A stretch of DNA of 64,000 bases. Source: Halorussus caseinilyticus. GTDB lineage: Archaea > Halobacteriota > Halobacteria > Halobacteriales > Haladaptataceae. The position numbers and the translations under genes are program-made. A model generated the notes under the pieces. The model saw only the letters and a list, made by a program, of their open reading frames with translations. It ran no database searches and was not told where the DNA came from. The DNA lies in NCBI RefSeq assembly GCF_029338395.1, contig NZ_CP119809.1, forward strand, positions 868,001-932,000, written 5' to 3'. Of this stretch, positions 58,334-62,366 are shown piece by piece (position 1 is the stretch's first letter; each line of letters starts with the position of its first letter).

Positions 58334-58491
58334 GCGAACGGTTTGCTCCTTACCTACTTAAAAAATTATGTGTTTGAAAACGTAAATACCGGGGGCGACG
58401 GCCGCCGGAACCGGGACGCGGGATGAGGATACAGAGCGAGTGAAAAATAGTAGGAAACCCGCCATTACCGCCAAACCCTCACGAAAGATGC

Positions 58492-58508
58492 TTGCTAATC
58501 AATAGCAA
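58492..58508. promoter_or_regulatory. Inverted repeat TTGCTA/TAGCAA
   Basis: TTGCTA (58492-58497), spacer ATCAA, TAGCAA (58503-58508). It is 63-79 bp before the ferredoxin oxidoreductase ATG and next to the larger palindrome; together they may be two operators of one regulator. Confidence 0.45.
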
Positions 58509-58512
58509 AGGC

Positions 58513-58540
58513 TTTACTGATTCCCCGCCGAATCAGTAAA
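58513..58540. promoter_or_regulatory. 10-bp perfect palindrome, candidate operator of the oxoacid:ferredoxin oxidoreductase operon
   Basis: TTTACTGATT (58513-58522), spacer CCCCGCCG, AATCAGTAAA (58531-58540). It ends 31 bp before the ATG at 58571, the position of TATA/BRE in a leaderless promoter, so a bound protein would block transcription. The Lrp gene downstream of the operon is a candidate ligand protein by proximity only. Confidence 0.6.
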
Positions 58541-58570
58541 CACTGGGCCTAACGGCCGTGAGCTACAAAT

Positions 58571-60472
58571 ATGACGGATGACGAACTCATCTGGCGAATC
58601 GCAGGTGGTTCCGGTGACGGAATCGACTCGACGAGCCAGAACTTCGCCAAAGCGCTGATGCGCTCGGGGCTGAACGTCTTCACGCACCGACACTACCCGT
58701 CGCGCATCCGCGGCGGCCACACATACGTGGAGATTCGGGCGAAAGACGAACCGGTAAAGTCGCGCGGAGACAACTACAACTTCCTGCTCGCGCTGGGCGA
58801 CAGTTTCGCCCGGAACCCGCAGGAAGAGGCTTACTACGGCAACGAGGAGATAAAGCCGCTGTCGGAGAACCTCGACGAACTCCGGGAAGGGGGAGTCATC
58901 GTCTACGACTCGGGGCTACTCGACGCCAGCGAAATCGAGAACTTCGACCAGCGCGCCGAGGAGAACGACTGGCACGTCTACGACCTCGACCTGCGAGGAC
59001 TCGCCAAGGAACACGGCCGTGAAGTCATGCGTAACACCGCGGGTGTCGGTGCGACCGCGGCGCTTCTGGACATGGACCTCGAACACATCGAGGGCCTGAT
59101 GGAGGACGCGATGAGCGGCGACGTGCTGGAGGCGAACCTCCAGATTCTCGAAGAGGCCTACGAGTCGGTCAACGAGGACTACGAACACACCCACGACCTG
59201 CGAGCCCCGACCGGAAGTGCCGACGAGGAGCAGGTCCTCGTCTCCGGGTCTCACGGCATCGCTTACGGTGCCTTAGACGAGGGCTGTCGGTTCATCTCGG
59301 GCTATCCGATGACCCCGTGGACCGACGTGTACACCATCATGACCCAACACCTGCCCGAGATGGGCGGTATCTCCGAGCAGGTCGAGGACGAAATCGCCGC
59401 GGCGTCGCTGGCAATCGGTGCGAGTCACGCGGGCGCGAAGGCCATGTCCGGGTCCTCGGGCGGTGGCTTCGCGCTGATGTCCGAACCGCTCGGTCTCGCC
59501 GAGATTACCGAGACGCCAATCGTCCTCGTAGAGGCGATGCGCGCCGGTCCCTCGACCGGGATGCCGACCAAGCCCGAGCAGGGTGACCTCGAACACGTCC
59601 TGTACACGAGTCAGGGCGACTCGAACCGCGTGGTGTTCGCGCCGGGCGACCCCGCGGAGTGTTACGAACAGACTCGCAAGGCCTTCGAAATCGCCTACGA
59701 GTACCAGATTCCGGCCATCGTCCTCTACGACCAGAAACTCTCGGGCGGCCACCAGACCGTGCCCGAGGACGTGTTCGACGAGGAGCCGAACCCCGACATC
59801 GGAAGCGTCGTGACCGAGCAGGACCTCGAAGAGGCCGTCCAAGAGGCCGGTCGGTTCAAGCGATACATGTACGACGACGAGGAGAGCGGATTCGGCGGCG
59901 TCAGTCGCCGCTCGCTCCCCGGTCAGAAGGGCGGGAACTACCTCGCGTCGGGTAACGAACACAACGAAGTCGGTCACATCAGCGAGGACCCCGACAACCG
60001 TACCATCCAGATGAACCGCCGGATGGCCAAACTCGACGCCATCCGGACGGAACTCTCGGAGGAAGCCGACCACCAGCCGGTCTACGGACCGGAGGACGCC
60101 GACTACGGCATCCTCAGCTTCGGTTCGACCAAGGGCGTCATCGAAGAGGCGGTTGACCAACTCAACGACGAGGGCCACTCCGTCAAAGCGATGAACGTCA
60201 GCGACATCATGCCGTTCCCGAAGGACGAAGTGACTGCATTCTTGGAGAGCGTGGACGAGTCGCTCGTCGTGGAGATGAACGCGTCGGCGCAGTTCCGCCG
60301 CCACATTCAGGGCCAGTTGGGTCGCTTCGGCGAGAAACTGTACAGTCTGCTCAAGTACGACGGCAACCCCTTCGAACCGGAGGAAATCGTCTCCGGGTTC
60401 GAGAGTCGTCTCGGCGAGGAGGCCGACTTGAGCCAGTACAACGTCCGCATCGAATCCGCAACGGGTGATTAA
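58571..60472 (+). CDS. porA: 2-oxoacid:ferredoxin oxidoreductase alpha subunit (probably pyruvate)
   Basis: A 633-residue fused gamma-alpha subunit: the N-terminal part (about 1-190: RIAGGSGDGIDSTSQNFAKA, RGGHTYVEIRA) is the gamma domain; from about 215 (VSGSHGIAYGALDEGCRFIS, GYPMTPWTDVY) is the alpha core with CoA/substrate contacts. PFPKDEVTAFLESVDESLVV belongs to the C-terminal domain. Together with the next gene it oxidises a 2-oxoacid with CoA and reduces ferredoxin. The lengths 633/311 match the haloarchaeal pyruvate enzyme better than the shorter 2-oxoglutarate enzyme. Confidence 0.9.
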   Translation: MTDDELIWRIAGGSGDGIDSTSQNFAKALMRSGLNVFTHRHYPSRIRGGHTYVEIRAKDEPVKSRGDNYNFLLALGDSFARNPQEEAYYGNEEIKPLSENLDELREGGVIVYDSGLLDASEIENFDQRAEENDWHVYDLDLRGLAKEHGREVMRNTAGVGATAALLDMDLEHIEGLMEDAMSGDVLEANLQILEEAYESVNEDYEHTHDLRAPTGSADEEQVLVSGSHGIAYGALDEGCRFISGYPMTPWTDVYTIMTQHLPEMGGISEQVEDEIAAASLAIGASHAGAKAMSGSSGGGFALMSEPLGLAEITETPIVLVEAMRAGPSTGMPTKPEQGDLEHVLYTSQGDSNRVVFAPGDPAECYEQTRKAFEIAYEYQIPAIVLYDQKLSGGHQTVPEDVFDEEPNPDIGSVVTEQDLEEAVQEAGRFKRYMYDDEESGFGGVSRRSLPGQKGGNYLASGNEHNEVGHISEDPDNRTIQMNRRMAKLDAIRTELSEEADHQPVYGPEDADYGILSFGSTKGVIEEAVDQLNDEGHSVKAMNVSDIMPFPKDEVTAFLESVDESLVVEMNASAQFRRHIQGQLGRFGEKLYSLLKYDGNPFEPEEIVSGFESRLGEEADLSQYNVRIESATGD

Positions 60473-60474
60473 CC

Positions 60475-61410
60475 ATGAGTGCATTCAACGCAATCGGCGA
60501 AGAACGCGAGATAGACAGAGACGAGTTCACCCCGGAAATCGAACCGCAGGCGACGTGGTGTCCGGGTTGTGGCGACTTCGGCGTCCTGAAGGCACTGAAG
60601 CAGGCGATGCCCGAAGTAGGACGCAACCCCGAGGAGACCCTGCTCGTGACGGGTATCGGCTGTTCGGGCAAACTGTCGAGTTACTTCCGGAGCTACGGGT
60701 TCCACTCCATCCACGGCCGGTCGCTACCGGTCGCTCGCGCGGCGAAGATGGCGAACCCCGACCTCGAAGTCATCGCGGCGGGCGGTGACGGTGACGGCTA
60801 CGGCATCGGCGGGAACCACTTCATGCACACCGCCCGCGAGAACCACGACATGACCTACATCGTCTTCGACAACGAAATCTTCGGGCTGACGAAGGGCCAG
60901 ACCTCCCCGACCAGTCCGAAGGGTCACAAGTCGAAGACCCAACCCCACGGGAGCGCCAAACAGCCCATCCGACCGCTGTCGCTCGCGCTGACCTCCGGGG
61001 CGTCGTACGTCGCCCGGACCGCGGCGGTCAACCCGAATCAGGCCAAGGAGATTCTCGCGGAGGCGATGGAACACGACGGCTTCGCCCACGTGGACTTCCT
61101 GACCCAGTGTCCGACGTGGAACAAGGACGCCAAGCAGTACGTCCCGTACATCGACGTGCAGGACAGCGACGACTACGACTTCGACATCACCGACCGCGGC
61201 GAGGCGTCGGAGATGATGCAGGAGGCCGAGAACGCCCTCTACGAGGGCACCGTTCTCACGGGTCGCTTCTACCACGACGAGGACCGGCCGTCCTACCAGC
61301 AGGAGAAGCAGGCCACGGGCGACATGCCCGAGGAACCGCTGGCGGAGCGGTACTTCGACGACGACTACGAGTGGGAGCGTAGCTACGACCTGCTCGAACG
61401 GCACAAGTAA
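60475..61410 (+). CDS. porB: 2-oxoacid:ferredoxin oxidoreductase beta subunit (probably pyruvate)
   Basis: A 311-residue thiamine subunit, 2 bp after porA. WCPGCGDFGVLKAL (Cys29, Cys32) and TGIGCSGKLSSYF supply Fe-S ligands; AAGGDGDGYGIGGNHFMHT is the ThDP/Mg motif, followed by DNEIFGLTKGQTSPTSPKG. A C-terminal acidic tail (from about 225) is a halophilic extension. There are too few Cys for the extra ferredoxin domain of bacterial enzymes. Confidence 0.93.
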   Translation: MSAFNAIGEEREIDRDEFTPEIEPQATWCPGCGDFGVLKALKQAMPEVGRNPEETLLVTGIGCSGKLSSYFRSYGFHSIHGRSLPVARAAKMANPDLEVIAAGGDGDGYGIGGNHFMHTARENHDMTYIVFDNEIFGLTKGQTSPTSPKGHKSKTQPHGSAKQPIRPLSLALTSGASYVARTAAVNPNQAKEILAEAMEHDGFAHVDFLTQCPTWNKDAKQYVPYIDVQDSDDYDFDITDRGEASEMMQEAENALYEGTVLTGRFYHDEDRPSYQQEKQATGDMPEEPLAERYFDDDYEWERSYDLLERHK

Positions 61411-61492: not shown

Positions 61493-61717
61493 CTACTCGT
61501 CGGGGAACGGGGGCGCGGACCGACTATCTTCCTCGTCGCCCTCGTCGCCCTCTTCGCCTTCCTCGTCGCCCTCTTCGCCTTCCTCGTCGCCCTCTTCGCC
61601 TTCCTCGTCGCCCTCTTCGCCTTCTCCTCCACCGCCGGGGAAACTGCATCCGGCGAGACCGGCGGCGACTCCGGCGAGCGAGACCTGTAGGAAACGTCTC
61701 CGCGAGCGTCGTGCCAT
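61493..61717 (-). CDS. Tat lipoprotein with Gly-Asp-Glu heptapeptide repeats
   Basis: A 74-residue protein. MARRSRRRFLQVSLAGVAAG has a twin-Arg signal and LAGC is the lipobox (Cys about 25). After SFPGGGG comes (GEEGDEE)n, encoded by four identical 21-bp units at 61540-61623, then DSRSAPPFPDE. The mature protein is an almost purely acidic string held to the membrane by lipid. It may bind cations; role unknown. Repeat number is probably variable between strains. Confidence 0.65.
   Translation of the reverse strand: MARRSRRRFLQVSLAGVAAGLAGCSFPGGGGEGEEGDEEGEEGDEEGEEGDEEGEEGDEGDEEDSRSAPPFPDE
61540..61623. repeat. Four perfect 21-bp tandem repeats
   Basis: Unit CCTCGTCGCCCTCTTCGCCT plus T, repeated at 61540, 61561, 61582 and 61603 without mismatch. 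In frame in the minus-strand lipoprotein gene, so each gain or loss adds seven residues. Not CRISPR: there are no spacers. Confidence 0.9.
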
Positions 61718-61937
61718 GTCCACGGGTAGACGAGCGAGTCCGAAAAGGGTCGCGGCCGTCCCGCACCGTTCGGCGGGTTCCGTTCGTCGAGCGACGGTAA
61801 CGAGTCGTTCTCGGTTCCGAGACCCGGTTACGCCAGACCGAACGCCGCCGAGTCCGTCGCCAACCCGGATTCGGTCACCGCACAGACCGTTTTTCCGTTC
61901 GCAAGGTATTTTTTCCCGTATCCGAAATACTCTGTCA

Positions 61938-62366
61938 ATGAGTGCCCAGTCCACGGAAGACAGAATTCTATCGGTTCTCGAAGAGGACGCCCAAGCGTCC
62001 TACGCCGAGATTGCCGAACGGGCGAACGTCTCGAAGCCCACGGTCCGTAAGTATATCGAAAAGCTCGAAGACGAGGGGGTCATCGTGGGGTATTCGGCCG
62101 AAATCGACCCGAAGAAACTATCGAGCAAGTCCATCGCGCTGGTCGGCATCGACGTAGCCAGCGAGCAGTACGTCGAAGCGACCCGCGACCTGAAGGAACT
62201 CGAGGAGGTGGAGACGCTCTACTCGTCGTCGGGCGACCACATGCTCATGGCGGAGGTCCGCGCCGCCGACGGCGATGCCGTCGGCGAGGTCATCAGCGAG
62301 AAGATTCTGGACATCGGCGGCGTGACCGCCGCCCATCCCTCGTTCCTCCAAGAGCGACTGAAGTAG
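61938..62366 (+). CDS. Lrp/AsnC family transcriptional regulator
   Basis: A 142-residue regulator. Helix-turn-helix at about 6-50 (DRILSVLEEDAQASYAEIAE, VSKPTVRKYIEKLEDEGVI) and a RAM ligand/oligomer domain (about 65-140: IALVGIDVASEQYVEATRDL, TLYSSSGDHMLMAEVRAADG). ATG 61938 gives the normal family start; the longer in-frame extension crosses the lipoprotein antisense. It lies 0.5 kb after porAB, so it may control this operon or amino-acid metabolism. Confidence 0.92.
   Translation: MSAQSTEDRILSVLEEDAQASYAEIAERANVSKPTVRKYIEKLEDEGVIVGYSAEIDPKKLSSKSIALVGIDVASEQYVEATRDLKELEEVETLYSSSGDHMLMAEVRAADGDAVGEVISEKILDIGGVTAAHPSFLQERLK

Follow-up and report, generated by a model that had tools for sequence, protein, structure and literature searches.

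The DNA in front of the pyruvate:ferredoxin oxidoreductase genes porAB of a Halorussus-like haloarchaeon carries two inverted repeats, one large and one small, which raises the question of whether either of them belongs to a regulatory site for the enzyme responsible for committing pyruvate to acetyl-CoA. In the window, by which we mean the whole 64-kb stretch of DNA analyzed, porA encodes the alpha subunit of this enzyme on the forward strand (58571-60472; Pfam POR_N 1.2e-45, POR 3.2e-38 and PFOR_II 1.1e-10). It is followed on the same strand by porB (60475-61410; Pfam TPP_enzyme_C 1.7e-31), which lies directly after porA in 20/20 genomes, and then by an lrpA1-type gene for an Lrp/AsnC regulator (61938-62366, forward strand, start assigned by homology; Pfam HTH_24 6.8e-14 and AsnC_trans_reg 3.3e-12), beyond which stands a convergent aminotransferase gene. 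The regulator gene starts 3.4 kb after the start of porA and 0.53 kb after the stop codon of porB, and not at 1.5 kb as originally predicted. Between porB and lrpA1, a small open reading frame without a Pfam match runs on the minus strand (61493-61717); by eye, its beginning resembles a twin-arginine lipobox (RRRFLQVSLAGVAAGLAGC), after which come acidic EEGDEEG repeats. The nearest named relative among the loci compared is ‘halophilic archaeon LT46’, whose PorA is 100% identical over the first 200 residues.

Both inverted repeats exist at the predicted place, −31 to −79 from the porA ATG (58571): the small repeat, TTGCTA-ATCAA-TAGCAA with a 5-bp spacer, at 58492-58508, and the large palindrome, TTTACTGATTC-CCCGCC-GAATCAGTAAA with a 6-bp spacer, at 58513-58540. 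The large palindrome had been described as TTTACTGATT/AATCAGTAAA with perfect 10-bp arms. It is indeed perfect, over 28 bp, with arms of 11 bp, and 4 bp rather than 5 bp separate it from the small repeat. It is very likely that the repeats overlap the core promoter, as predicted. Haloarchaeal promoters are characterized by a BRE (CGAAA), a TATA box (TTWT) and a WW element at −10 (PMC4983044), and, judging from sequence and conservation, the same three elements stand before porA at canonical spacing to a predicted transcription start. The probable TATA box, CTTTACT (58512-58518, forward strand), contains a T conserved in 98% of 110 distinct promoter footprints followed by two Ts conserved in 82% each, and lies about 28 bp before a conserved CACTGG/TACGG. 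A BRE-like GCAAAGG (58505-58511), assigned from its position relative to the TATA box, overlaps the right half-site of the small repeat, and AA occupies the expected −11/−10 (WW) position (58531-58532). From the TATA spacing and the family-conserved CACT(G/A)G, transcription would start at the A of CACTGG (58542).

The large palindrome spans the interval between the probable TATA box and the predicted transcription start. Its left arm opens with the TTTACT of the former; the right arm takes in the site of the WW element and stops two bases short of the latter. The regulatory role proposed for it failed the conservation test set beforehand: when 28 genomes of the family were aligned, the right arm occurred in the window alone (0/27 other genomes), and the perfect palindrome is found in 1/139 distinct porA promoters, which is the window itself, the next best repeat at this position among them matching 8/11. 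The exact right arm was detected in 1/179 porA upstream regions, with two others within two mismatches. The size of the palindrome is likewise unexceptional because 20 perfect inverted repeats of at least 10 bp per arm and gaps of 3-20 occur in the window (counted as distinct centers, three of the 20 overlapping), 8 of which have arms of at least 11 bp, and because 35 of 60 dinucleotide shuffles of the window contain an arm-11 repeat at least once; the shuffles average 3.4 repeats for the shorter arm limit and 0.93 for the longer. The other repeats with arms of at least 10 bp in the window are mostly GC-rich. On the basis of its absence from the relatives and of the number of such repeats in the window, we rejected the large palindrome as a conserved operator. 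We consider that, among the genomes seen, it is most likely private to this species and without function, probably a coincidence in a fast-changing spacer. A template-switch origin was considered and is not needed, because this spacer varies freely in relatives. The perfection of the 28 bp and their exact fit between TATA box and transcription start would suit a recently acquired operator or hairpin that functions in this species only. Such an origin seems highly improbable in view of the rapid evolution of the spacer, the abundance of repeats of similar arm length in the window, and the comparison with LT46, which matches the window at every position of the 39-nt footprint and from CACTGGGCC up to the start codon, yet has GTCTATCTTCAGA in place of CCGAATCAGTAAA and lacks the palindrome. 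A regulon is equally unsupported, the pattern with 10-bp arms having a single copy in the genome.

The small repeat tells a different story, although as a repeat alone it has no statistical weight, with 60 perfect places of 6-bp arms and 5-bp gap in the window; its weight comes from its conservation. We collected 179 porA upstream regions from the family, from 80 named loci, which were the best 80 among 194 confirmed ones, and from additional families, some genomes being entered twice. These regions align without gaps over 40 positions with the TATA box at the end, and 164/179 score above 15 in this ungapped comparison, which delimits a conserved footprint at 58478-58517 (forward strand) comprising an upstream box, a dyad, the BRE and the TATA box. 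Within the family (27 genomes, one with a TATA deletion being left out), mean pairwise identity reaches 0.87 in the footprint, compared with 0.46 in the spacer between TATA box and transcription start and 0.34 in the DNA just upstream; across the class, the corresponding values are 0.69, 0.35 and 0.27 (132 distinct rows scoring above 15). The predicted regulator in front of porAB thus finds support in the strong constraint on the region of the small repeat across Halobacteria and none in the large palindrome, which is not conserved: the striking palindrome is most likely a coincidence, and the modest repeat belongs to a promoter element with deep conservation. The 15 regions scoring 15 or less include five of genus g11, three of g24, two of g27 and a few others, genera in which the footprint appears to be diverged or dispensable. 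In g11, the porA promoter retains a diverged relic, TAACGATTAATGAGTGG...GGAAAATCTTTAG. The porA-porB-lrpA1 order is kept at loci L200, L201 and L207, which represent g11, g24 and g27 and whose porA footprint is gone or heavily altered. Translation of the footprint within an extended PorA was discarded, many genomes having a TAA in the dyad and the variation being, by eye, without a codon pattern.

The constrained core of the footprint is a partial dyad, TGnnA-N5-TnnCA (58493-58507). Its three base pairs of symmetry hold in 53/53, 50/53 and 53/53 divergent footprints, a set drawn from regions scoring above 15, a choice that favors a conserved core. The five other pairs of the dyad, outermost and inner, are symmetric in just 26, 24, 17, 5 and 4 of the 53. 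Because these outer and inner pairs are mostly asymmetric, the perfect 6-bp arms of the window appear as one version of a looser dyad, and the asymmetry of five pairs out of eight makes a monomeric or multi-protein footprint possible. Upstream of the dyad lies the conserved box TCACGAAAGATG (58479-58490, forward strand; TCAYnAT...T in the class), of which columns 1-3, 6, 7 and 11 each exceed 1.1 bits and which may offer a contact to a second protein. The original prediction had invoked two regulators or two half-sites of one; this reading is not supported, since a single conserved dyad together with BRE/TATA and the upstream box accounts for the site.

We then asked where else this element occurs, using a sequence-only model built from 40 of the 53 divergent footprints. 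In the window's own genome, the model has a single match, at porA (E 3.3e-8), and nothing else at E≤10. It matches 162/194 haloarchaeal genomes at E≤0.5 and finds no match in the remaining 32 at that threshold. Among the matches listed, 149/150 places (102/102 and 47/48) precede a porA start by 84-103 nt. The one exception is a partial match in genome G191, whose other two matches precede two porA copies. In 23 genomes, the model has more than one match (two or three) at E≤0.5; most of the second matches were too weak to appear among those listed, and the extra ones that do appear are those of G191. The two porA copies of G191 (C11:405427-406032 and 411936-412541) are 6.5 kb apart, have equal scores and carry a footprint each. 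A strict pattern of dyad core plus TATA box gave a consistent picture, occurring once in 9/12 genomes and being absent from 3/12, while its reversed control never occurred. By comparison, the small repeat with one mismatch allowed has 7 places in the genome against 22 for the reversed control, with one perfect copy, at porA; since nothing beyond porA exceeds the control, a regulon-wide role of this repeat was rejected. Our results indicate that an element of about 40 bp stands before porA in most of the haloarchaea examined and rarely anywhere else. As a cis-regulatory site it is ordinary in kind; its breadth and its restriction to one promoter are notable. To our knowledge, few archaeal regulatory sites combine class-wide conservation with confinement to a single promoter, and we recognized no earlier description of a haloarchaeal porA promoter element in the literature searched, which was mostly outside subscription journals.

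These observations are probably best explained, overall, by an operator dedicated to porAB, fused to BRE/TATA and bound by a dimeric regulator. The region would be the porAB promoter, with a cis-regulatory element of about 40 bp present in most of the class Halobacteria and, in practice, only before porA. The dimer-type operator TGnnA-N5-TnnCA would occupy the predicted positions −49 to −35, with its right half overlapping the BRE and adjoining the TATA box, and the upstream conserved box would form a further part of the element. The constant phasing to the TATA box and the dimer-sized dyad point to an effect of the bound protein on TBP/TFB, which it would help or hinder. We favor a dedicated regulator that sets porAB expression. 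Activation would be favored over repression, a guess that we make because the site lies upstream of the TATA box and because of the analogy with Ss-LrpB discussed below; for two TrmB family regulators, a site upstream of the TATA box is reported to activate and one downstream to repress (PMC10817205). A simpler interpretation dispenses with a separate regulator and sees in the footprint only a core promoter that is strong and extended, its BRE/TATA being recognized by a particular pair of TFB and TBP. It accounts for the nearly invariant spacing to the TATA box and for the 9 columns, out of 21 exceeding 1.1 bits in the footprint, that belong to BRE and TATA. We nevertheless regard it as distinctly unlikely, because the porA site, while sharing GCAAAGG, CTTTACT and AA at expected spacing with the haloarchaeal core promoter, adds about 26 conserved bp upstream of the BRE, specific to porA and with a symmetric core, and because the footprint marks one promoter per genome whereas core promoters recur genome-wide.

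If a dedicated regulator does bind the dyad, its neighbor LrpA1, encoded just downstream of porAB, is a candidate for local control in the manner of Ss-LrpB, the Sulfolobus Lrp protein that acts on the adjacent porDAB operon (PMC4046817; PMC2894021). The porA-porB-lrpA1 order on one strand is found in 18/20 genomes compared, from several families, and an LrpA1 orthologue is present in 17/17 genomes tested (at E≤1e-25, one match in 16/17 and two in the remaining genome), a ubiquity that makes a test by absence impossible. Ss-LrpB is reported to activate porDAB in Sulfolobus solfataricus through a palindromic, AT-centered site that likewise precedes a por operon near an lrp gene and whose consensus, TTGCAAAATTTGCAA, ends in TTGC/GCAA as does TTGCTAATCAATAGCAA (PMC4046817). 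The spacing differs: the Ss-LrpB palindrome measures 15 bp and leaves 7 bp between TTGC and GCAA, whereas the site before porA is 2 bp longer, at 17 bp, and leaves 9 bp, so that the porA dyad does not reproduce the Ss-LrpB spacing. Three such sites control lrpB itself, in contrast to a single predicted site class-wide here and a porA dyad in 0/19 lrpA1 promoters. In the window, the lrpA1 promoter (61898-61930, forward strand) contains TTCGCAAGGTATTTTTTC together with GTATTT-N13-AAATAC (61906-61930), which differ from the porA dyad. At its own gene, LrpA1 of Halobacterium salinarum is reported to bind another repeat in the promoter, with a proposed operator at −31/−25 and −12/−6 of lrpA1 (PMC2894021). 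The two sites have in common a regulator gene at the same locus and an inverted repeat over the core promoter, but the arms of the Halobacterium operator are of 6-7 bp spaced by 12-13 bp and unrelated in sequence to the porA dyad. Furthermore, porAB does not appear in Table 1 of the Halobacterium LrpA1-dependent genes, of which the full list is in the supplement (PMC2894021), the presumed recognition helix of LrpA1 is identical in 18/18 proteins, including three from genera that have lost or changed the footprint, and the g21 and g53 genomes keep the footprint with lrpA1 far from porAB. LrpA1 as the regulator of porAB is rather unlikely on this evidence, and the Lrp link of the original prediction, while gaining from the gene order and the Ss-LrpB precedent, is left suggestive only by the missing dyad at lrpA1 and the missing porAB in Table 1. 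Neither porA nor pyruvate features in the main text of a study of structure-based Lrp motifs (PMC4177876). Separately, we observed that the lrpA1 promoter element TTCGSAAGRTATTTTTTC is exact in 13/19 promoters, with variants in the rest, and that GTATTT-N13-AAATAC is shared by the window and its nearest relative.

A second candidate is TrmB, the sugar-sensing regulator of gluconeogenesis, which might bind the porA footprint by analogy with Haloarcula hispanica, where a TrmB ChIP peak between HAH_1365 and porA (HAH_1366) is stronger without glucose (PMC10817205). The porA promoter is thus TrmB-bound in that species, but the footprint misses the site of the TrmB regulon: TACT-N(7-8)-GAGTA, reported for Halobacterium (PMC3794607), is absent from the 250 bp before porA of the window, as is the relaxed pattern TACT-N5-11-AGTA, and the TACT...AGTA inside the large palindrome is separated by 16 bp. 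Genus g11, which we infer to be Haloarcula, has only the diverged relic of the footprint, no other promoter of the window's own genome shows the footprint, and as far as the same report describes it, the trmB mutant changed no pyruvate oxidation gene and had no effect on porAB expression (PMC10817205). TrmB is, in our opinion, a very unlikely owner of the site. Identifying the protein predicted to bind the porA dyad would reveal what regulates a branch point of central carbon metabolism in haloarchaea, and would put to the test the idea that Lrp control of pyruvate:ferredoxin oxidoreductase is shared with Sulfolobus.

Downstream of the predicted transcription start, the porA mRNA would open with a hairpin rich in GC, which in most cases lies 10-13 nt ahead of the start codon. 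In the window, GGCC-UAAC-GGCC (58546-58557, forward strand) lies near the predicted 5′ end of the leader (58542-58570), and a predicted hairpin recurs there in haloarchaeal porA leaders with a varying stem sequence, the innermost stem existing in 27 different versions among 124 distinct leaders. A stem of at least 4 bp that encloses a 3-10 nt loop, admits G-U pairs and ends 7-17 nt before the ATG can form in 123/124 leaders against a mean of 81/124 in shuffled ones, a loose criterion that alone says little. A hairpin score of at least 12 is reached by 119/124 distinct leaders, whereas 50 shuffles gave 33.7 on average and 44 at most. Folding energies point the same way, with a mean z of −1.94 for the 124 leaders against mononucleotide shuffles. 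In 25 clusters below 60% identity, dinucleotide shuffles gave z −1.67, with 11/25 at p≤0.05, against −0.21 and 3/25 for control windows 165 nt upstream. RNAalifold, run on 40 leaders aligned with MAFFT, returned no pair, short divergent leaders aligning badly; for this reason, the case for the hairpin relies on per-sequence folding and shuffles, which speak less strongly for covariation. Since 72% of the protein-coding transcripts of Haloferax volcanii are reported to be leaderless (PMC4983044), a structured porA leader would belong to a minority. As to its role, it might protect the 5′ end or control initiation, both of which are guesses. Taken together with the promoter, the leader could be the RNA-level element of a one-promoter circuit that haloarchaea keep for pyruvate:ferredoxin oxidoreductase, probably with the neighboring Lrp as sensor. 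This combination is unlikely on the whole; if true, Lrp control of the pyruvate/acetyl-CoA node would, with Ss-LrpB and porDAB in Sulfolobus, be a link common to distant archaeal phyla. In many genera, inspection by eye also reveals a GTGA/GGAG-like stretch after the leader hairpin and before the ATG.
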